Positions 28,498-38,827 of a DNA stretch of 44,034 nt are shown in pieces. How positions within the stretch are numbered: the first letter of the stretch is position 1; the number at the start of each line of letters is the position of its first letter. The translations under genes were made by a program, and so were the position numbers. The notes under the pieces were generated by a model, which worked only from the letters and a program-made list of their open reading frames with translations, searched no databases and had not been told where the DNA came from. Location: positions 1-44,034 of the forward strand of contig JAKLDU010000008.1 in NCBI GenBank assembly GCA_022703355.1, in the 5' to 3' direction. The DNA comes from Deltaproteobacteria bacterium. Lineage in GTDB: Bacteria; Desulfobacterota; Desulfomonilia; UBA1062.

Positions 28498-28800
28498 GGC
28501 ATTCCTTCCTGATAATCACAAAGTGAGGTAGCCTATGCCATACAATACCGGAATCGTCAAGTCCCTCCTGCGCCTGAGCCTCCGCTCAGGCAGGGGAGGC
28601 CGGCCCTCCAGGGAAAGCGGAATCTTCCCCTGGGCTCGAGGAAAAACGCGATGCAGGATGCCTGGAATGAGACAACCCCTCGCTCCTCCCCTGGGCACGG
28701 GGGAAAACGGGCCCCCTCGCACGGTGGCCGGAAGGCAAATCCTCTTCACCCGGAGCGGTCCGCGGGGGGAGGCCTGTTCCCCGGAGCCCAGGCGGGAAGA
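28498..28800. other. Intergenic region rpoZ-fba with repeats and hairpin
   Basis: About 300 nt with no convincing gene. An 8-bp perfect hairpin GCCTGAGC-CTCC-GCTCAGGC lies at 28572-28591 and can be lengthened by CTCC/GGAG flanks. Two 23-bp imperfect direct repeats starting TCCCCTGGGC (28626-28648 and 28687-28709, 20 of 23 identical) follow. The region is downstream of fba and upstream of rpoZ, both on the minus strand, so the hairpin may separate the two units, though no U-tract follows. Confidence 0.55.
28532..28560 (-). promoter_or_regulatory. Candidate promoter for rpoZ-dnaJ
   Basis: On the minus strand TTGACG (28555-28560) and CATAGG (28532-28537) are 17 nt apart, with a predicted start ~25 nt before the rpoZ ATG. 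The -35 box is good (5 of 6), the -10 box weak. No CIRCE is seen here. Confidence 0.4.
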
Positions 28801-30072
28801 TCAGTCGTCGAAGTTGCCCGTGGGGCCCCCCTCTTTTTTGAACGCCCTGGCGCGCTCGAGGATCTTCTCCCTCGTCCACTCTCCGGGGTTCTCGATTCGC
28901 TTTCCCTTGGGGCCCAGGTCGCAGGAGCCGGCCTCGAGGATGGCCTCCATGGCCAAAGGCGCCGTGTCGCCCGCGTTGAAGCAGTGCACCAGCAGGTCGT
29001 AAATGAAATCCTCGACGCCCTTGACCATCCGCTCCCTCACTTCCCTGGGCTGGGCCAGGAGCTTCTTCTCGAAGGGGAGGTTGAGCTTCTTGTAGTCGCC
29101 CTTCTTCAGGGCCTTGTCGTTGGCGTACGCGACCATCTCCTGCCACATCTCCTCGGTGACGCCCGCCCCTTTGACCTTGAGGAACTCGCCCTTCTCGTCG
29201 AGGATGGCGTTGCCGTAGGGGTTGACCTCCAGGCCCCAGGAGATCATCTGCAGGGCGGTGGCCACGTTGGCCTTGGTGGTGGCGGTTTCCGAGGCGATGC
29301 GCCTCAAGCGCTCCGCGCTGTTGCCGGAGGTGCCGTGCTGGGCGCCGGAGATGCCGTATTTCCCGAGCGCCTCGTGGATCTCCCGGGTGAGCTCCACCTG
29401 GATGCCCGCGTCGCTCTCCTCGATGCCGTGGGTGGTGCCGTTGTTCAGGGCGATCCAGTCGGGGAAGATGCCGTGGGCGTTCAGGCCCTGGATGAGGAAG
29501 AGCGCCTCTTCCGGGGTCGAGAGCCCGGCCTTGCCCTTGATCTCCCCCACCTCGGTCTCGTAGCCCGCCCACCCGGGGATGTACGCGCTCAGCTCGATGT
29601 TGGCGAGCAGGTTGTCCTCCTCGGCCATGTGGGAGGCGTCGATGGCGATGGAGGTGATGCCCGCGTCGATCATGGAGGGGATGTCGGTCCGGGCCTTCTC
29701 CACCTCCACGGACTTCTTGAGGCCGAAGTGGTCCGCGTGCACGGCCACCGGTACGGTGATGCCCAGCTCGTTGCAGAAGGCGTCGACGTACTGGGCGAGG
29801 TTCCACATGTTGATGGGGCAGTAGTCAGCCTCGGACTTGGCGATCTCGACGATGACCGCCGCGTTGGCCCGCTGGGCGGCCTTGAGCGTGGCCCTGATCA
29901 CCGCGGAGCTCCTGCCGTTGGCCGCGATGGTCATGGCCTTGCCCTTCTTCATCATGGCGCGGTCGATGACCTTGCCGCTCACGATGAGGGCCTTCGAGTT
30001 GGGGAAAAGCCTTTTGATCGTAGGGGGCCGTCCGATGGCCAGAACCTTGTCGAAATCTGCCGAATAGCTCAT
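28801..30072 (-). CDS. fba: Class II fructose-bisphosphate aldolase, long form
   Basis: Zinc-dependent aldolase interconverting fructose-1,6-bisphosphate with DHAP and glyceraldehyde-3-phosphate. At 423 residues it belongs to the longer bacterial form with an extended C terminus. Metal and catalytic motifs seen are VHADHFGL (Asp and His), IDASHMAEEDN, NNGTTHG and GAQHGTSGNS. The gene lies 42 nt after fbp on the same strand with a GGGGAGGA ribosome site; the pair makes consecutive steps of gluconeogenesis, so the transcript is likely biosynthetic. Tagatose-bisphosphate or related aldolase activity cannot be ruled out by eye. Confidence 0.88.
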   Translation of the reverse strand: MSYSADFDKVLAIGRPPTIKRLFPNSKALIVSGKVIDRAMMKKGKAMTIAANGRSSAVIRATLKAAQRANAAVIVEIAKSEADYCPINMWNLAQYVDAFCNELGITVPVAVHADHFGLKKSVEVEKARTDIPSMIDAGITSIAIDASHMAEEDNLLANIELSAYIPGWAGYETEVGEIKGKAGLSTPEEALFLIQGLNAHGIFPDWIALNNGTTHGIEESDAGIQVELTREIHEALGKYGISGAQHGTSGNSAERLRRIASETATTKANVATALQMISWGLEVNPYGNAILDEKGEFLKVKGAGVTEEMWQEMVAYANDKALKKGDYKKLNLPFEKKLLAQPREVRERMVKGVEDFIYDLLVHCFNAGDTAPLAMEAILEAGSCDLGPKGKRIENPGEWTREKILERARAFKKEGGPTGNFDD

Positions 30073-30114
30073 GCGTGTCCTCCCCAGTCTTTTTTTATGG
30101 CGCAGTGCGACCCG

Positions 30115-31131
30115 TCATGAAAGATTCTTTTTCGCGAACTCCTCGTATTCGAGCACGTCGTCCTTCGAACCGATGATGAGCGGCACCCTTTGGTGCAGCT
30201 TCGCGGGCGTGATGTCCAGGATCCGCTCGTAGCCCGTGGAAGCCCATCCGCCCGCCTGCTCCACCACGAAGGCCAGCGGGTTGGCCTCGTAGAGCAGCCG
30301 GAGCTTGCCCGTGGGCTTCTTCGGGTCCTTGGTGTCTTCGGGGTAGAGGAAGATCCCCCCCTTGAGCAGGTTGCGGTGGAAGTCCGCCACGAGCGAGCCG
30401 ATGTAGCGCGAGGAATACGGGGCCCCAAGCGTGTTGCGCTCGGACTTCAGGTAGTCGATGTACTCCCGGGTGCCCTTCTTCCAGTAGGGCTGGTTGCCCT
30501 CGTTCGTGCTGTAGATCTTTCCCCGCGCGGGGATGCGGACATTGGGGTTCGACAGGACGAACTCGCCCACGCTCGGGTCGAGGCTGAAGACGTTGACCCC
30601 GTTGCCCGTGGTGTACACGAGGTTCACGCTCGAGGAGTAGATGATGTAGCCCGCGCCGAAAAGCTTGCTGCCCGTCTGGAGGCAGTCCTCGAGCTTTCCG
30701 TCGCCGCCGCCGGTCACGCGCTTGTAGATGCCGAAGATGGTGCCGATGGAGACGTTCACGTCGATGTTGGTGGACCCGTCGAGGGGGTCGAACATGACCA
30801 CGTAGTCGCCCTTGGGGTGCTCGGGCGGGATGACGATCATGTCGGGCTCTTCCTCGGAGGCCATGACGCAGACCTTGCCGATGTAGTTGAGCGCGTTGAT
30901 GAAGACCTTGTTGGCATATTCGTCGAGCTTCTGGACCTCCTCGCCCTGGACGTTCTTCTGGCCCGTCCGGCCGAGGATGTCCTCGATGAGGCCCGCGTGG
31001 GAAACCTGGGCCGCCACCACCTTGGCGGCGAACACGATCTGGCTCAGGATGGCGCTGAAGTCTCCCCGGCCGCCGTAACGGCTCTGCTCACTCATGATGA
31101 AACGGTCTAACGAGATGATCCTGTCGTTCAT
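30115..31131 (-). CDS. fbp: Fructose-1,6-bisphosphatase, class I
   Basis: Hydrolyses fructose-1,6-bisphosphate to fructose-6-phosphate, the committed gluconeogenic step. The 338 residues include the metal motif DPLDGSTNIDVNVSIGTIFGIY, an upstream EE pair in MASEEEPD, and the substrate-binding YSSRYIGSLVADFHRNLLKGGIFLYPED stretch. The ATG has a GGGGAGGA ribosome site. It leads fbp-fba, with no good promoter seen in the ~200 nt upstream; a TACAGT sequence about 25 nt before the start codon could serve as a -10. Divergent to the trp operon. Confidence 0.95.
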   Translation of the reverse strand: MNDRIISLDRFIMSEQSRYGGRGDFSAILSQIVFAAKVVAAQVSHAGLIEDILGRTGQKNVQGEEVQKLDEYANKVFINALNYIGKVCVMASEEEPDMIVIPPEHPKGDYVVMFDPLDGSTNIDVNVSIGTIFGIYKRVTGGGDGKLEDCLQTGSKLFGAGYIIYSSSVNLVYTTGNGVNVFSLDPSVGEFVLSNPNVRIPARGKIYSTNEGNQPYWKKGTREYIDYLKSERNTLGAPYSSRYIGSLVADFHRNLLKGGIFLYPEDTKDPKKPTGKLRLLYEANPLAFVVEQAGGWASTGYERILDITPAKLHQRVPLIIGSKDDVLEYEEFAKKNLS

Positions 31132-31333
31132 GGTTCCTCCCCATGCGCTGAGACTGTACCCTATGCCGGTTTTCCGATCTCGGGGGATGATACCATTTTC
31201 AGGGGTGGGAAAGCAAGGCGATGTCGGCCTTTGTCCGACACGGCATCACACCGGGGGCGGGCTTCTGCCGTGGTGCGGAAATACCCGGCACCGCACATTC
31301 CAGAACGGGCCAGGAAAATAAATGACACGGGGC

Positions 31334-31362
31334 TTGACAGGGCAGTTGTTTCTATATATAGA
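31334..31362 (+). promoter_or_regulatory. Promoter of the trp operon
   Basis: Perfect TTGACA (31334-31339), 17-nt spacer, TATAGA (31357-31362); a shifted TATATA at 31355-31360 would give a 15-nt spacer. The start is predicted at about 31367-31369, which coincides with the leader peptide ATG. The -10 lies inside an 18-bp palindrome. Confidence 0.75.
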
Positions 31363-31365
31363 AAC
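31348..31365. promoter_or_regulatory. 18-bp perfect palindrome over the trp -10 box (candidate operator)
   Basis: GTTTCTATATATAGAAAC is a perfect inverted repeat that covers the spacer end and the -10 hexamer of the trp promoter, exactly where a repressor dimer would block RNA polymerase. It does not resemble the E. coli TrpR operator with its CTAG core. The cognate regulator is not in the window. Confidence 0.6.
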
Positions 31366-31368
31366 ATC

Positions 31369-31461
31369 ATGCAGAAGGAATTTGCCAGGATCGCACGCGG
31401 GAAAAAAGGCCTCTGGTGGTGGCGCGCCTCGAAGAATGGCGTGAGCGGGGGTTTGCCTTAG
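31369..31461 (+). CDS. trpL: trp operon leader peptide
   Basis: A 30-codon reading frame with three consecutive Trp codons (residues 16-18, 31414-31422) in the context GKKGLWWWRAS, followed by a stop at 31459-31461 just before the attenuator. This is the hallmark of ribosome-mediated attenuation: stalling at the TGG codons when charged tRNA-Trp is scarce lets the antiterminator form. No Shine-Dalgarno precedes the ATG, and the predicted transcription start is at or within 2 nt of it, so the message may be leaderless here. Too short for most gene callers. Confidence 0.85.
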   Translation: MQKEFARIARGKKGLWWWRASKNGVSGGLP

Positions 31462-31503
31462 AGCGATTCTGACCAGTCAGACGGCACCGAGCGGCAGGCT
31501 TTC
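31447..31503 (+). promoter_or_regulatory. trp antiterminator (segments 2 and 3 of the attenuator)
   Basis: GGGGGTTTGCC (31447-31457) can pair with GGCAGGCTTTC (31493-31503) over 11 positions, five of them G-U. Segment 2 overlaps the end of the leader peptide frame and segment 3 is the left arm of the terminator, so the two structures exclude each other. A ribosome that reaches the leader stop would cover segment 2 and release the terminator. In the loop between, TCTGAC/GTCAGA (31468-31481) can form an extra small hairpin. Confidence 0.6.
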
Positions 31504-31528
31504 CCAGAAAAGCCTGCCGCTTTTTTTT
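31490..31528 (+). terminator. trp attenuator terminator
   Basis: AGCGGCAGGCTTT (31490-31502) pairs perfectly with AAAGCCTGCCGCT (31509-31521) around a 6-nt loop, and eight T residues run from 31521 to 31528. It sits 16 nt before the trpE ATG and 28 nt after the leader stop. A textbook intrinsic terminator. Confidence 0.93.
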
Positions 31529-31544
31529 ATCGAAAGGAGAGAAG

Positions 31545-32930
31545 ATGGAAAAGATCCGGGTGTTCAGGGACAGGAAAGACCGGGGCGTCGTGGTGGAAAA
31601 GAGGCTCTCCTGCGACACGCTCACCCCCGTCCAGGCCTATTGGGCAGTGGCGGGAGAGGGACCGGGCTTTCTCCTGGAATCCATCCCCGGGTCCTTCAGC
31701 TTCCTGGGCAGGTTTTCCACGGGCGACACTCTGACCGTGCACGAAGCGGCCGACCCCTGGTCCCTGCTGCCCTTGAGGGGGAGCGTGCTCCAGTTCGACA
31801 AGGAAGGCCTGCCGCCCTTCATCGGGGGGTACGTGGGCTACCTGGGCTACGACCTGGTGCGCGGCATCGAGAAGCTCCCCCGCCCGGTCGTTCCGTCGGG
31901 CTTCCCGGACGCCATGCTGGGCTCCGTCGACACCCTGGTGGTGTTCGACCATCTCAGGCAGTCCCTTTCCCTCATCCACACCGTTCCCCTCAGGTTCATG
32001 GGCGAAGAGGACGCGCTCAAGCGTGCCCGGGAGGCGTTCGGGCCCATCGAGGAGGCCCTGCGCTCAAAGCCCCTCATGCCCGCGGCCGGGGTGCCGCCCC
32101 GGTGCAGGGTCAGCGGGGTGTCCCTCGACGATGCGGCCTTCATGGAAGCCGTCGAAAAGGCAAAAGAGTACATCCGCGACGGCGACATCTTCCAGAGCGT
32201 GCTTTCGAGGAGACTGGAGCTCGACGCATCCTGCGGCGCCTTCGACACCTACCGCCGTCTCCGGCACATCAACCCCTCCCCCTACCTCTTCTACATACGC
32301 CTGGGAGACGTGACGCTGGTGGGTTCGTCGCCCGAGGTCATGGTCAGGCTCAAGGGGGACACAGTCACGTCCCTGCCCATCGCGGGCACCAGGCCGCGGG
32401 GAAAGAGCATCGAGGAGGACGAGTTCCTGGCCGAGGACCTCATGAACGACGAAAAGGAGAGGGCGGAGCACCTCATGCTCCTCGACCTGGCGCGCAACGA
32501 CGTGGGCAGGGTGTCGAGGCCCGGCACGGTGAGGGTTTCCACCCGGGAGGTCGTGAGGAGATACTCCCACGTCATGCACATCGTGTCCCGGGTGGAGGGG
32601 GAGAAGAAGCCCTCGCTCTCCAACATCGACGTCCTGAAGGCCTGCTTCCCGGCGGGCACGGTCTCCGGGGCGCCCAAGGTGAGGGCCATGGAGATCATAG
32701 ACGAGCTCGAAGGCATGTGCCGGGGGCCCTATGCCGGCGCGGCGGGTTACCTCTCCTACTCCGGCGACATCGACACCGGCATCGCCATCCGCACGGTCTT
32801 CATCCGGGGCAAAAAGGTCTTTGTCCAGGCAGGCGCGGGCATCGTCTGGGATTCGGTCCCCGCCCACGAACTCAGGGAGATCGACAACAAGCTCAAGGTG
32901 TTGAGCATGGCTCTGGGAGGCATGGCATGA
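31545..32930 (+). CDS. trpE: Anthranilate synthase component I
   Basis: Converts chorismate to anthranilate with ammonia from TrpG. The 461 residues show the N-terminal domain with LLES at residues 43-46, the element that binds feedback tryptophan, and the chorismate-binding domain with VGSSPEVMVRL, IAGTRPRGKS, DEKERAEHLMLLDLARNDVGR and the final GAGIVWDSVPAHELREIDNK. AAAGGAGAGAAG precedes the ATG. The stop overlaps trpG (ATGA). Aminodeoxychorismate synthase PabB is a close relative, but the position first in a complete trp operon behind a Trp-codon attenuator settles the assignment. Confidence 0.97.
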   Translation: MEKIRVFRDRKDRGVVVEKRLSCDTLTPVQAYWAVAGEGPGFLLESIPGSFSFLGRFSTGDTLTVHEAADPWSLLPLRGSVLQFDKEGLPPFIGGYVGYLGYDLVRGIEKLPRPVVPSGFPDAMLGSVDTLVVFDHLRQSLSLIHTVPLRFMGEEDALKRAREAFGPIEEALRSKPLMPAAGVPPRCRVSGVSLDDAAFMEAVEKAKEYIRDGDIFQSVLSRRLELDASCGAFDTYRRLRHINPSPYLFYIRLGDVTLVGSSPEVMVRLKGDTVTSLPIAGTRPRGKSIEEDEFLAEDLMNDEKERAEHLMLLDLARNDVGRVSRPGTVRVSTREVVRRYSHVMHIVSRVEGEKKPSLSNIDVLKACFPAGTVSGAPKVRAMEIIDELEGMCRGPYAGAAGYLSYSGDIDTGIAIRTVFIRGKKVFVQAGAGIVWDSVPAHELREIDNKLKVLSMALGGMA

Positions 32931-33505
32931 TCCTCATGATCGATAATTACGACTCATTCACGTTCAACCTGGTGCAGGGCTTCGAGTCCCTGGGCGAGGT
33001 GGTGGCGGTGTTCCGGAACGACGCCATCGTCATCGACGCCATCGGGAAGATCGATCCGTCGGGCATCGTCATCTCGCCGGGGCCTGGCAGGCCGGAATCG
33101 GCGGGCATCTGCGTCGAGGTGGTGAGGCATTTCCACCAGTCCGTGCCCATTCTCGGGGTCTGCCTGGGGCACCAGTGCATAGGAGAGGCCTTCGGGGCGG
33201 CCATCAGGCCCGCGGGAAGGGTCATGCACGGGAAGTTCTCCCCCATCACCCATGACGGGTCAGGCCTTTTCGAAGGGATTCCCCAGGCGTTTGCGGCGGT
33301 CCGTTACCACTCCCTCGCGGTGGAGAGGGAGACGCTTCCGCCCGGGCTCATCGTGAGCGCCGTGGCCGAAGACGGCGAGGTCATGGGTCTCAGGCACGAA
33401 AGGCACCCGCTCTTCGGCGTCCAGTTCCACCCCGAGTCCGTCGCCACAGACCACGGCTGCGATATCCTGGCCAACTTTCTCTCGAGAACGGGGAGGGTAG
33501 TATGA
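32927..33505 (+). CDS. trpG: Anthranilate synthase component II (glutamine amidotransferase)
   Basis: Class I glutaminase of 192 residues supplying ammonia to TrpE. It starts with the typical MIDNYDSFTFNLVQ; the nucleophile is C79 in GVCLGHQ, and the catalytic His and Glu are in FHPES near residue 168. It is a stand-alone subunit, not fused to TrpD as in enterobacteria. Its start and end both overlap neighbours by 4 nt. Confidence 0.97.
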   Translation: MILMIDNYDSFTFNLVQGFESLGEVVAVFRNDAIVIDAIGKIDPSGIVISPGPGRPESAGICVEVVRHFHQSVPILGVCLGHQCIGEAFGAAIRPAGRVMHGKFSPITHDGSGLFEGIPQAFAAVRYHSLAVERETLPPGLIVSAVAEDGEVMGLRHERHPLFGVQFHPESVATDHGCDILANFLSRTGRVV

Positions 33506-34491
33506 AGACCATCGTGGAGAAGCTCATTGACCGCAAAGACCTCGAAGACCGGGAGATGGAGATGGCCTTCGACATGATCATGTCGGGCCAGGTGGGCGAC
33601 AGCCTCGTGGCGGGGTTCCTCGTGGCGCTGAGGGCCAAGGGCGAGAAGCCTTCGGAAATCGCGTCCGCGGCCCGCATCATGCGGGAGAAGGCCCTGCGGG
33701 TGAACGTCGGGTTCGACGTGGTGGACACCTGCGGCACGGGCGGAGACGGCGCCTCCACCCTCAACATCTCCACCGCCGTGGCCTTCGTCCTGGCAGGGGC
33801 GGGCCTGAAGGTCGCCAAGCACGGGAACCGCTCCGTCTCCTCCACGTCCGGCAGCGCCGACTGCCTCGAGGCCCTGGGGGTGCCCATCGATCTGAACCCC
33901 TGCGAGGCGGAGGCGGCACTCAAGGACAAAGGCTTCGCCTTCATGTTCGCCCCGCGCTACCACCCGAGCATGAAGCACGCCATGCCGGCCCGCAAGGGCC
34001 TGGGCATGAAGACGGTCTTCAACATCCTCGGCCCGCTCACCAACCCGGCCCGGGCCCAGTACCAGGTCATCGGGGTATACCGGGAGGAGCTCATCGACCC
34101 CATCGCCCAGAGCCTGAGGATCCTCGGCCTCAAGGGGGCCATGGTGGTCCACTCGGGGCTCGACGAGGTGTCCATCTCCCGGCCCACCCGCTATGCCCGG
34201 CTCTCGGGAGGGGCAATCGTACGGGGCGAGGTGTGCCCCGAGGACGCGGGGCTTGAACGCGGCCCCCTCGACGGGATCAGGGTGTCCACACCGGAAGAAT
34301 CGGCCCGGCGCATCGAGGCGGTGTTCTCGGGCGACCTGAAGGGCCCCTGCCTCGACACCATCCTCCTCAACGCCGGGGCGGCGTTCATGGCGGTGGACGG
34401 CCGCCTGGGCCTCCGGGAGGGGGTCCGGCGGGCGGCGGCGGTGATCGAGGGGGGCGGGGCCCTCCGGGCGCTCGAGCGGGCGAGGGGATGA
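33502..34491 (+). CDS. trpD: Anthranilate phosphoribosyltransferase
   Basis: Transfers phosphoribose from PRPP to anthranilate. The 329 residues include the PRPP-binding DTCGTGGDGASTLNISTAVAF segment (about residue 75), KHGNRSVSSTSGSAD, the second metal motif GLDEVS in VVHSGLDEVSI, and GPLTNPARAQYQVIGVY. It is a single-domain enzyme of normal length. The ATG overlaps the trpG stop; the stop overlaps trpC. Confidence 0.97.
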   Translation: MKTIVEKLIDRKDLEDREMEMAFDMIMSGQVGDSLVAGFLVALRAKGEKPSEIASAARIMREKALRVNVGFDVVDTCGTGGDGASTLNISTAVAFVLAGAGLKVAKHGNRSVSSTSGSADCLEALGVPIDLNPCEAEAALKDKGFAFMFAPRYHPSMKHAMPARKGLGMKTVFNILGPLTNPARAQYQVIGVYREELIDPIAQSLRILGLKGAMVVHSGLDEVSISRPTRYARLSGGAIVRGEVCPEDAGLERGPLDGIRVSTPEESARRIEAVFSGDLKGPCLDTILLNAGAAFMAVDGRLGLREGVRRAAAVIEGGGALRALERARG

Positions 34492-35228
34492 TGGACTTCC
34501 TCCGGAGCATGTACCGGCTCTCGAAGGAACGGGCCGCCGGGCTCAGCCCTTCGGCAGGCCGTCACCGCTACCCGGTGCGGTCGTTCCGGGAGGCCCTGAA
34601 GGGCATGTCGGTCATCGCCGAGGTGAAGTACGCCACTCCCGCGGAAGGGCTCTTGGGCATAGAGGAAAGCCCTTCGGAACTCGCTTCGCGCTTTCAGTCA
34701 CTGGGCGCGGCGGCGGTCTCCTGCCTCACCGAGCCGCACTTTTTTTCCGGGAGCATGTCCTTTCTTCAGGAGATCAGGGAGGCGTGCAGCCTGCCCATTC
34801 TCATGAAGGACTTCATCGTCGATTTCAGGCAGATCCTTGCCGGAAGGGAACTGGGGGCGGATGCGTTCCTGCTGATCACGGAGATGCTTCAGGCGGATGA
34901 GCTCGAAGAGCTGTACGCCTGCGGCAGGGAGCTCGGCATGGACTGCCTGGTGGAGGTCCACGGGATCGAAGGTCTCGAGAAGGCCATCCGGATAGGTGCG
35001 GAGATCATCGGCGTGAACGCGAGGGACCTGTCGACCCTCGAGGTGGACCCCGCGAGGCACGAGATGATGGCAGGGCTCCTGCCCGCGGGCGTGGGCAAGG
35101 TGGCGGAGAGCGGGATCTCCTCGCCCGGGAGGCTTCTGGAGCTCAGGGAGTCGGGCTACGACGCCGCGCTCGTCGGCCGGGCCATGGCGCGGGAGGACCT
35201 GCGAAGGGAGCTGCTCTCGTGTGGGTGA
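34488..35228 (+). CDS. trpC: Indole-3-glycerol phosphate synthase
   Basis: TIM-barrel enzyme of 246 residues closing the indole ring. Catalytic residues are in place: E and K of VIAEVKYATP, the second Lys in MKDFI, Glu in LVEVH, Asn in GVNARDL, and E-S in VAESGI. The first motif is divergent: KYATPAEG instead of the usual K-[RS]-x-SPSxG, so phosphate or substrate contacts may differ slightly. It is monofunctional, separate from trpF, with which it overlaps by 10 nt. Confidence 0.94.
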   Translation: MMDFLRSMYRLSKERAAGLSPSAGRHRYPVRSFREALKGMSVIAEVKYATPAEGLLGIEESPSELASRFQSLGAAAVSCLTEPHFFSGSMSFLQEIREACSLPILMKDFIVDFRQILAGRELGADAFLLITEMLQADELEELYACGRELGMDCLVEVHGIEGLEKAIRIGAEIIGVNARDLSTLEVDPARHEMMAGLLPAGVGKVAESGISSPGRLLELRESGYDAALVGRAMAREDLRRELLSCG

Positions 35229-35782
35229 AGATCTGCGGGATCACCCGGTGCGAAGACGCCCTCGCCGCCTGCGAGGCCGGGGCGGACGCCCTGGGGTTCG
35301 TGCTCACCGGGAGCCCTCGCAGGGCCGACCCGGAGGGCCTCCTCCCGTGGATCGCCTCGTTCAGGGGCGTGGAAAAGGTGGGTGTGTTCACTGACGAGCC
35401 CCCCGGGTACATCGTGGAGGTGTCGACCCTGCTGGGGCTCGACACGGTCCAGCTTCACTCGCCGGTGAGGCCGGAGCACGGGATCTTGAGGGGACGCTTC
35501 GGGATCATCCGGGCGGTGAAGAGCCTCGACGGGCCGGGCCTTTTTCCCCCCGGCACGGACCGCGTGCTCCTCGACCCCAGCTTGGGCACGGGCACGAGGG
35601 GGGCATGGGAGCGCCGGGAGGTGCCCTTCATCCTTGCGGGGGGGCTGAACCCGGAGAATGTCAGGCGGGCGGTCCGCGAGGCCAGGCCCGAAGGCGTGGA
35701 CGCGAGCTCGGGCGTGGAGGTCTCCCCGGGGATCAAAGACGCGGAGAAAATCAGAAAATTCATCCAGGAGGCCAGATCATGA
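35219..35782 (+). CDS. trpF: Phosphoribosylanthranilate isomerase
   Basis: Isomerises PRA to CdRP. The 187-residue TIM barrel is on the short side. It has the diagnostic WVKICGIT start with the catalytic Cys, GSPR in [16 protein letters not shown], the catalytic Asp in [14 protein letters not shown], and [10 protein letters not shown] followed by GVDASSGVE, which binds phosphate. It starts with GTG at 35219 within the end of trpC; a second in-frame GTG at 35225 is also possible. The stop overlaps trpB by 4 nt. Confidence 0.95.
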
Positions 35783-36930
35783 ACGGCTATTTCGGGGAGT
35801 TCGGCGGGCAGTACGTACCGGAGACGCTGCTCCCGGCATTGACGGAACTCGAGGAGGCATTCGCCGCCGCCTCGAAGGACCCCTCCTTCCGGGGTGAGTA
35901 CGGCGCCTACCTGAGGGACTACGTGGGCAGGCCCTCGCCCATGACCCATGCCCGCAGGATTTCCGGGAACCTGGGGATCGACGTGTACCTCAAGCGGGAG
36001 GACCTGAACCACACCGGCTCGCACAAGATCAACAACGCCCTGGGCCAGATCCTCCTCGCCCGAAGGATGGGCAAGGGCAGGGTCATCGCCGAGACCGGCG
36101 CGGGGCAGCACGGCGTGGCGACGGCCACGGTGTGCGCGCTCTTCGGCCTTCCGTGCGCGGTGTACATGGGCTCTGAAGACATCGAGCGGCAGAAGCTGAA
36201 CGTGGAGCGCATGAGGCTTCTGGGCGCCGAGGTCGTGCCGGTGACCTCCGGGAGCGCCACCCTCAAGGACGCCACGAGCGAAGCCATCAGGGACTGGGTG
36301 GCCAATGAGGACACCACCTACTACCTCATCGGCTCGGCCATCGGCCCGCACCCGTACCCCACGCTCGTCCGGGAGTTCCAGCGGGTCATCGGCACCGAGG
36401 CCCGGGCGCAGATCCTCAAGAAGGCCGGCAGGCTCCCGGATGCGGTGATCGCCTGCGTGGGCGGCGGCTCCAACGCCATCGGGATCTTCGCGGGCTTCCG
36501 AAACGACCCCGTGGAGCTCATCGGCGTGGAGGCCTACGGCGACGGGAAAAGCAGGCACGGGGCGAGCATCCGTTTCGGCACGCCGGGCGTGCTCCACGGC
36601 ACGCGATCGTTCCTCCTCCAGGACGAAGACGGCCAGGTGCGGGAAACCCACTCGGTTTCGGCCGGCCTCGACTACCCCGGCGTGGGTCCGGAGCACAGCT
36701 TCCTCGCCACTACGCAGCGGGCCCATTACGAACTCGTGGACGACGCCCGGGCGTTGAGCGCCTTCACGATGCTGAACCGGCTCGAAGGGATCGCGCCCGC
36801 CCTGGAGAGCGCCCATGCCGTGGGGTACCTGGAGCAGTACGCGAAGGACCACCAGGGGGCCGTCGTGGTGGTGAACCTTTCGGGCAGGGGGGACAAGGAC
36901 CTGCACACCGTGCTCAAGGAGGGCCTGTGA
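35779..36930 (+). CDS. trpB: Tryptophan synthase beta chain
   Basis: PLP enzyme condensing indole with serine. The 383 residues begin with the TrpB1-type [14 protein letters not shown] and carry the Schiff-base lysine K83 in [14 protein letters not shown], the catalytic Glu of the [14 protein letters not shown] segment, the phosphate-binding [10 protein letters not shown] loop, and a final [10 protein letters not shown]. TrpB1 rather than TrpB2 is supported by length and the trpA neighbour. ATGA overlap with trpF; GTGA overlap with trpA. Confidence 0.98.
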
Positions 36931-37682
36931 TAGCTGAAGCCATCAGGAACAGGGAAAGAGCGATCGTCCCCTATGTGACAGCCGGACTGAAGGGGCTCGA
37001 TGCCACGGGTGAGATCATCCGGGCCCTCGATGCGGAGGGGGCGGCGTTGATCGAGGTCGGCATACCCTTCTCCGATCCCATGGCGGACGGGCCGGTGCTT
37101 CAGAAGGCCTCCCACATGGCGCTCCTGTCGGGTTTCACCCTGGACGGGCTTTTCGGGCGCCTGGGCACCTGGAGCGCTTCCGTGCGGGCGCCCCTGGTGA
37201 TCATGTCGTACATCAACCCCCTCATGAGGCGGGGCCTCGAGGAGACAGTCGCGCGCTTCCGGGACAGCGGCGTCGAGGGCGTGATCATCCCGGACCTGCC
37301 GCTGGAAGCGGGGGACATCTATGAGCTCTGCCTCAAGGCGGGTCTGGACCTCATCAGGCTCGTCGCGCCCACGACTCCCGAGGCGAGGCGAAGGGAAGTG
37401 GTGTCCCAGTGCGGCGGGTTCGTGTACGCGGTGACGGTCAGGGGTGTGACCGGCGCGCGGGCAGATCTGCCCGCGGGGGTCCGGGACCAGGTGGCAGGCA
37501 TCAGGGCTTTCACAAACCTCCCGGTGTGCGCGGGGTTCGGGGTGTCCAGCGCGGACCAGGTGAGCCGGATGCTCGCCTTTTCAGACGGGGTGATCGTGGG
37601 GAGCCACCTCATGGCCAGGGTGCTCGAGGCCCATGACCCCGTGGAGACCGCGCGGCTGACCTTTGCCTCCCTCATGAACTGA
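36927..37682 (+). CDS. trpA: Tryptophan synthase alpha chain
   Basis: Cleaves indole-3-glycerol phosphate to indole and passes it to TrpB through a tunnel. The 251-residue TIM barrel has the catalytic pair E43 ([11 protein letters not shown]) and D54 (MADGP), and a later [13 protein letters not shown] segment with the phosphate-binding [10 protein letters not shown]. The start is GTG overlapping the trpB stop. It ends the operon; a GGGGTG/CACCCC hairpin at 37709-37730 follows without a T-run. Confidence 0.96.
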
Positions 37683-37897
37683 AGCGGGCAACGGGGGGAA
37701 GACGACCAGGGGTGTTTCCGGTTTCACCCCCGGCCGCCGCGGATGAAGTGGCGGTACTGATCGACGACAACGCCCACCCGAAGTTCACCCCGGGAGCAGC
37801 GGGTGGAGCGCCCTGGTCATGCCGGAATATCCGTGCCAGTGAGGATGGGGGTTCGGCGCCCATTGATCGCCCGGGGCGCCGGTGGTATCCTGCCCGC

Positions 37898-38827
37898 ATG
37901 ATGGTATTCGCCTGGCGCTACCTGCCGGTGTTCTTCCTCTGGCTCATAGGGCTGAGCGTGCTCGACAACGCTCTGCACCACATCTCCCCGCCCGTGGAGA
38001 GCGTCGCGGTCCTGGCCTTCCTCCCCCTGGGGGCTTTCCTCGTCCTTTTGTGGCACGCCTGCCGGAGGGAATACGGGGCCGATGGCGCACGGAGGAGGTT
38101 CGTCCCCTGGGCAGCGGTCCTGGCGCTTTTGTACTGCACCCCGCTCCTGCACACCCTCTCGATGCCCCTGGGGCTTTCCGGGCAGAAGCTCATCTATGAG
38201 TTCAGCGCCCTGGCCCAGTTCGCCATCTTCGTCGTCCACGCGCGGACCTGGTTTAAGCCCTGGGACTGGGCCTGGGTCTTCGGGGCCACGCTCCTGTTCG
38301 GCATGATCCTCGAAAACGGGGGGATCATTCTCGGCGTGTTCTCGGAACCGGGCTTCCTCCTCTACCTGCCGGGGCTCCCCGCGCCCCTGGCAACGGCCCT
38401 GGGCTGGGTGAACGTGCTGTACTGCGCCTTCTTCGCCGTGGAGAGGGTTTTGCCGCCCCTGCCGCCCGTGGGCAGGGGCCTGGTGTGCTCAGGCATCGGG
38501 CTCTGCCTCGATATCCCCTTCGACCCCGTGGCCACCAGGCTCGGGTGGTGGGTATGGGAAGCTTCGCTGGACGCAGCCGTCTGGGGCGTGCCCGTGATCA
38601 ACTTCGCGGCCTGGTTCTGGGCGCTCTTCCCCTATGGTGCGGCGTACTACCTGGCAAGGGGAAACGGGGGACTAGGGGAGGCGAAAAGGCTGGGGTGGTT
38701 CGTGGCGGGGTTTCCGGTGATCCTGTGCGGGGAGTTCCTGGGGGTCGTTGCGACCCTGTTTCTGGCGGGGGATCGCGCAGGGCTCGCGGTGATGCAGAAG
38801 TTCTTCAGCTCCCTCGGTCTTCCGTGA
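37898..38827 (+). CDS. Polytopic membrane protein, CruF-like (carotenoid biosynthesis, DUF422)
   Basis: About eight hydrophobic segments in 309 residues. The best-conserved-looking part, GIGLCLDIPFDPVATRLGWWVWE followed by WGVPVINFAAWFWALFPYG, matches the pattern of the DUF422/CruF family (D-P-x-A-x-x-x-x-W-x-W, then GVP-x-NF-x-xW), and an earlier ENGGIILGVFSEPGF fits the family's first motif. CruF hydrates the end of linear C50/gamma-carotene-type carotenoids; no other carotenoid gene is adjacent, so the assignment is tentative. The start at 37898 (ATGATG) is chosen at the beginning of the first helix; no clear ribosome site. Its last 23 bp overlap the convergent glycosyltransferase gene. 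Confidence 0.6.
   Translation: MMVFAWRYLPVFFLWLIGLSVLDNALHHISPPVESVAVLAFLPLGAFLVLLWHACRREYGADGARRRFVPWAAVLALLYCTPLLHTLSMPLGLSGQKLIYEFSALAQFAIFVVHARTWFKPWDWAWVFGATLLFGMILENGGIILGVFSEPGFLLYLPGLPAPLATALGWVNVLYCAFFAVERVLPPLPPVGRGLVCSGIGLCLDIPFDPVATRLGWWVWEASLDAAVWGVPVINFAAWFWALFPYGAAYYLARGNGGLGEAKRLGWFVAGFPVILCGEFLGVVATLFLAGDRAGLAVMQKFFSSLGLP

Follow-up and report, generated by a model that had tools for sequence, protein, structure and literature searches.

Ribosome-mediated attenuation of trp operons is textbook knowledge, and its combination with TrpR repression is generally presented as typical of enteric bacteria. In the trp operon of Escherichia coli, which has a trpL attenuator and TrpR, a leader with Trp codons is followed by a segment 2 located near the leader stop codon, by mutually exclusive 2:3 and 3:4 pairings and by a T tract, and a TrpR-family repressor acts at the promoter.

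In Sinorhizobium meliloti, the transcript of trpL (rnTrpL) starts with the ATG of the small ORF; this leaderless gene is under attenuation, and no transcription repression is reported to act on the trpLE(G) operon (PMC7298713). TrpR regulons have been reconstructed in eight gammaproteobacterial lineages, with trpE and trpR itself as core targets and DAHP synthases as targets in some taxa, and TrpR was reported to be absent in other classes (PMC5343134).

Here, we report on the control region of a trpEGDCFBA operon found in a 44,034-nucleotide stretch of deltaproteobacterial DNA (contig JAKLDU010000008.1, hereafter the window). This region probably combines TrpR-type repression at the promoter with leaderless ribosome-mediated attenuation, the two controls acting in series. 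It shares with the E. coli system all the elements named above, the repressor being here proposed. It differs from that system by a longer leader devoid of a Shine-Dalgarno sequence (24-37 codons in the family), by its predicted operator and by a 1:2 protector hairpin which is not conserved among the relatives. What this locus has in common with S. meliloti trpL is attenuation through a leaderless leader peptide, the leaderless state being here a prediction; however, the leader of the latter has only 14 codons and, in the present case, a putative operator overlaps the promoter. The likeness to the gammaproteobacterial TrpR regulons lies in the TrpR-family repressor, here a candidate, and in trpE, trpR and DAHP synthase as targets, whereas the lineage is another one, the TrpR is divergent, and the dyad TGTTTCT-N6-AGAAACA is also present before trpB2.

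A further comparison is offered by a sister family (f2, 18 genomes), in which trp attenuators with a WWW-type leader, a GGAGGTCTGCC-like segment and a terminator before trpE were observed. In contrast to the present family, a Shine-Dalgarno-like sequence precedes the leader start where this is readable (GGTGG or similar, with a short 5' UTR, for several leaders), the dyad is not above background and the TrpR domain was found in none of the 18 genomes. An incomplete literature search brought up no previous description of either trp attenuation or TrpR for the present lineage. Judged from sequence, the attenuator belongs to a known kind, and what appears to be new is the association of a predicted leaderless start and a probable TrpR operator in one promoter.

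Organization of the trp control region

The features of the control region and of the operon are collected in Table 1.

Table 1. Features of the trp control region and operon in the window.
Feature	Position	Strand	Basis or remarks
Predicted -35, TTGACA	31334-31339	+	Identical hexamer in each of the 18 family promoters examined
Perfect 20-bp dyad TGTTTCTATATATAGAAACA, putative TrpR operator	31347-31366		Overlaps the -10
Predicted -10, TATAGA	31357-31362	+	17-nt spacer; read from sequence
Leader peptide gene trpL, 30 codons and TAG, predicted leaderless	31369-31461	+	Sequence; family comparison
Segment 1	31407-31415	+	Forms the protector hairpin with 31446-31454 when folded without constraints; not conserved
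Stall site TGG TGG TGG (three Trp codons)	31414-31422	+	Sequence; 2-3 Trp codons at all 19 family trpE loci
Segment 2, antiterminator 5' strand, beside the leader stop codon	31447-31457	+	Family consensus GGAGGTTTGCC
Intrinsic terminator hairpin (3:4), 14 pairs	31489-31522	+	
Segment 3, antiterminator 3' strand and terminator 5' arm	31493-31503	+	
T8 tract of the terminator	31521-31528	+	First one or two T within the stem
trpE Shine-Dalgarno, AAAGGAG	31533-31539	+	Read from sequence
trpE	31545-32930	+	NCBIfam TIGR00564, 467 bits, below the 518-bit cut-off
trpG	32927-33505	+	By motif; translation MILMIDNYDSFTFNLVQGF...GVCLGHQ...
trpD	33502-34491	+	TIGR01245, 387 bits
trpC	34488-35228	+	PRK00278 models, 223 bits, below cut-off
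trpF	35219-35782	+	PF00697, 111 bits
trpB	35785-36930	+	TIGR00263, 598 bits from ORF residue 61; start taken from the model match, the ORF itself opening at 35605
trpA	36927-37682	+	TIGR00262, 218 bits

The leader gene translates as MQKEFARIARGKKGLWWWRASKNGVSGGLP, followed by the stop. The antiterminator consists of 11 contiguous pairs, five of which are G-U. In the terminator, the arms 31490-31502 and 31509-31521 form 13 Watson-Crick pairs around a loop of six nucleotides, and a closing G-U pair (31489/31522) brings the stem to 14 pairs. A first-pass annotation of this DNA had already described a 30-codon leader with three consecutive TGG codons, which proved correct to the base, as well as a possible 11-position antiterminator and a perfect 13-bp terminator with T8 just before trpE, both confirmed from the sequence. 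The promoter, the dyad and the lack of a Shine-Dalgarno sequence before the leader ATG had escaped it. The gene order that it proposed downstream of the attenuator, trpEGDCFBA, was borne out by family-model matches and by the trpG motif. TrpE matches in other lineages, obtained by a contig search, did not exceed about 50% identity.

The probability of a chance occurrence was estimated with 20,000 dinucleotide-preserving shuffles of positions 31300-31544. WWW in an ATG leader of 10-45 codons was obtained in a single shuffle. Perfect stems reaching at least 12 bp and followed by T7 did not occur, nor did the combination of such a stem with a WWW leader (0/20,000 in both cases). The plain fold of the window attenuator gave a weak z-score (-1.3); it is conservation that carries the case for the attenuator. 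At the gathering threshold, Rfam detected only a tRNA in the window; the Trp_leader family (RF00513) scored 15.8 bits, below its gathering value of 41. The other matches of a permissive Rfam search, all to unrelated sRNAs, were judged to be due to chance or driven by the terminator.

Upstream, the operon is flanked by the divergent fbp gene (class 1 fructose-bisphosphatase, 30115-31131, minus strand), which adjoins trpE in 13 family loci. A conserved upstream sequence, AAATCAAGGCGATGTC, was considered as a part of the attenuator and rejected; it is read as belonging to the divergent fbp promoter region. A block resembling AAATCAAGG(C/T)(C/G)ATGTC is kept upstream of the trp promoter in the window (31211-31227) and in relatives, and is consistent with the divergent fbp promoter. 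Two long ORFs of the window, 37712-38827 and 28651-30120, gave no NCBIfam or Pfam match; the DNA being GC-rich, they may lie in a wrong frame.

Conservation of the attenuator

The family sample consisted of 24 genomes from 10 genera, in which the upstream DNA could be read for 19 trpE genes, that of the window among them. All 19 loci have kept two or three Trp codons and the terminator, as well as the segment-2 motif followed by the stop codon of the leader. Thus, the Trp codons and exclusive hairpins on which the first-pass reading depended are conserved in the relatives.

In the alignment, 93.9% of the terminator cells are paired. Changes on both sides were found in 8 of its 14 pairs, compared with 4.9 in shuffles, and none of 500 shuffles reached its covariation score. 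For the antiterminator, 91.1% of the cells are paired, versus 36-58% when it is slid. Its covariation does not exceed that of shuffles (one pair changed on both sides, 1.2 expected), as segment 3 has to match segment 4 as well. With a covariance model derived from this alignment, we recovered the element in 20 of the 24 family genomes, 19 times before trpE and once before a TRAP-transporter gene (G008). The matches that it gave in G004:C140, G005:C234 and G010:C213 resemble ordinary terminators.

At the G008 locus (L193, G008:C70, around positions 300-500), the Trp leader MGMIMKYYSDSYSGWWRWYGGRGSVHRR, closed by a stop codon, and a terminator precede the gene of a TRAP solute-binding protein (DctP), which is a candidate tryptophan transporter gene under attenuation. 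In three other genomes (L196, G012:C63; L198, G013:C40; L197, G014:C32), Phe-rich leader peptides ending with SFGFFFFD before the stop were observed. They have a short predicted 5' end and no obvious Shine-Dalgarno-spaced start, and are followed by an antiterminator-like segment, a terminator and the gene of a periplasmic-binding protein (PF13458). These leaders likely represent a phenylalanine attenuator acting on a transporter.

Modelling of the switch

The folding of the leader transcript was modelled for the 18 genomes with a full leader, the ribosome being placed either at the first Trp codon or at the stop codon. Segment 2 paired with segment 3 in 18/18 models of the stalled ribosome. 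When the ribosome stood at the leader stop codon, this pairing was found in 0/18 models and the terminator was left free. The mutually exclusive hairpins that had been expected under alternative folding constraints were reproduced by computation. In these 18 genomes, the last Trp codon of the cluster is usually separated from the stop by 12 codons, a distance at which a stalled ribosome does not cover segment 2.

A 1:2 protector hairpin of the E. coli type is formed by the window sequence, and most relatives lack it. In most of the latter, as long as segment 4 is not yet made, the fold energies favour the 2:3 pairing even without a ribosome, and the default of an untranslated leader may thus be read-through in many of them.

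Taken together, ribosome-mediated attenuation, as first proposed for the trpE leader, is well supported at the sequence level by conservation, fold models and shuffles. The further statement that it operates as known from E. coli holds for the leader and the exclusive hairpins. It does not extend to the predicted leaderless start, to the putative operator placed on the promoter or to the 1:2 hairpin, which is mostly unconserved.

Promoter and predicted leaderless start

Only 6 nt lie between the predicted -10 and the trpL ATG. A strict sigma-70 consensus scan of the window did not list the trp promoter, because position 6 of TATAGA is an A. No Shine-Dalgarno sequence was found upstream of the trpL ATG in the window. 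Reading on from the dyad, the first ATG to be met shares the frame of the Trp codons in 18/18 genomes, the window included. This ATG is located 29-33 nt past TTGACA in all 18 promoters, and the dyad shifts by 4 nt relative to the -35. The leader ATG tracks the -35, at a distance where transcription should start. The trpL leader is thus predicted to be leaderless, with its ATG coinciding with +1 or lying no more than about 2 nt from it.

A leader of the same type was observed on the minus strand of G004:C78 (L134). A dyad, the leader MRGRTTVHTATWWWQTDIYGSASAIIP, ending with a stop codon, and a hairpin are found there before a gene coding for an Lrp/AsnC ligand-binding domain fused to a TrpD-type phosphoribosyltransferase. 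The Phe-rich leaders described above are arranged in like manner.

The dyad and the TrpR protein

With at most one mismatch, the dyad was found in 22 of the 24 family genomes, and the reversed control was nearly empty. Counted by genomes, the sites are associated with the trp operon (18), trpR (5), trpB2 (11), DAHP synthase (3 or 4) and the Lrp/AsnC-TrpD fusion (1); for about four weak sites, no trp gene was evident behind the dyad. In G007:C66 (L118, around 1543-1617), the dyad is followed by a Trp-rich short ORF, MQEERRLWWKFWKILTGKWYWRAW with its stop, before trpB2, and no obvious terminator was seen.

A TrpR domain (PF01371) is encoded by 21 of the 24 family genomes and by all 16 of those of good quality. 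The protein of the window genome (G000:C101:24047-24265) scores 46.4 bits with PF01371, for a cut-off of 27, and 39.7 bits with NCBIfam TIGR01321, for a cut-off of 67.25; it is still nearer to the TrpR model than to YerC/YecD. Its own gene is not preceded by the dyad. A phmmer search of the PDB with a single TrpR gave no match, and a TrpR profile matched TrpR and YerC-like structures about equally. When the TrpR proteins of the family were aligned, the stretch ISLCKITRGS was invariant.

In a sample of 198 genomes of the phylum, only two TrpR genes from outside the family were above the cut-off, and both are preceded by the dyad, 50-65 nt upstream. This is the strongest single argument, drawn from comparison of loci, that TrpR binds the dyad. 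One of the two genomes (G221) has a second dyad before trpE, followed by a WW leader with a Shine-Dalgarno sequence. In the same genome (L230, G221:C10), a trpB-like gene lies directly after the trpR gene that has the dyad upstream.

The dyad of the window is thus the probable operator of a TrpR-type repressor. More generally, we consider it likely that a non-gammaproteobacterial TrpR, recognizing TGTTTCT-N6-AGAAACA, controls the trp operon, trpR, trpB2, DAHP synthase and the Lrp-domain/TrpD fusion, and that in one family this operator has been merged with the promoter of a leaderless attenuator, all in about 200 bp.

Discussion

In the model that we propose, abundant tryptophan would lead the TrpR-type repressor encoded on G000:C101 to occupy the dyad over the -10, and initiation would be blocked. 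Transcripts that escape repression would have their first base at the leader ATG or beside it, and the ribosome would consequently load on a 5'-terminal AUG without the help of a Shine-Dalgarno sequence. When charged tRNA-Trp is scarce, the ribosome would stall at the three TGG codons, leaving segment 2 free to pair with segment 3; the terminator would not form and trpE-A would be transcribed. When tRNA-Trp is plentiful, the ribosome would reach the TAG and cover segment 2, and the 3:4 hairpin would end transcription with the T tract.

The same attenuator could also work with nothing leaderless about it, if translation of the leader began internally, behind a Shine-Dalgarno sequence, or if the transcript began further upstream. 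The AAGGA found at 31375-31379 in the window, the in-frame ATG behind a Shine-Dalgarno-like AGGAG in two of the 18 genomes (G002 and G012) and the use of Shine-Dalgarno leaders in the sister family and in G221 are in line with such a start. However, the window contains no in-frame ATG, GTG or TTG from 31375 to the Trp codons, the Shine-Dalgarno sequence is missing in most relatives too, and the constant placing of the leader ATG behind the -35 in 18 promoters argues for the leaderless start; we hold an internal or upstream start to be quite unlikely. As for the attenuation itself, a constitutive terminator next to a chance Trp-rich ORF would agree with the plain-fold z-score, but conservation, terminator covariation, the ribosome-position folds and the shuffles all contradict it, and its probability is practically nil.

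Concerning the dyad, another factor, for example another regulator of aromatic amino acid genes, might be the one that binds, the co-occurrence with TrpR being due to descent only. This would account for the trpR of the window's own genus, before which no dyad was seen in the loci read, and for the difference between the dyad and the E. coli TrpR operator. The presence of the dyad before trpR in five family genomes and before both non-family trpR genes points instead to TrpR, as do the tryptophan and aromatic genes that make up its targets and the joint lack of TrpR and dyad in the sister family, and binding by another factor seems unlikely. The overlap with the -10 might further suggest that the dyad reflects a mere core-promoter constraint in an AT-rich region and binds nothing. 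Yet its distance to the -35 varies by 4 nt, the arms TGTTTCT/AGAAACA do not correspond to a promoter consensus, and it recurs at other trp-related genes while the reversed control pattern is almost absent, which makes this explanation very improbable.

Repression by a TrpR-type protein in series with leaderless attenuation, as we favour it here, would place the two control layers in a lineage remote from the enteric bacteria and under another operator, next to a sister family predicted to have attenuation without TrpR. The family and its sister family thus form a natural comparison for the gain or loss of these two layers. In addition, the predicted leaderless leader peptide would provide a test case for whether ribosomes that load on a 5'-terminal AUG can follow RNA polymerase as closely as attenuation requires.
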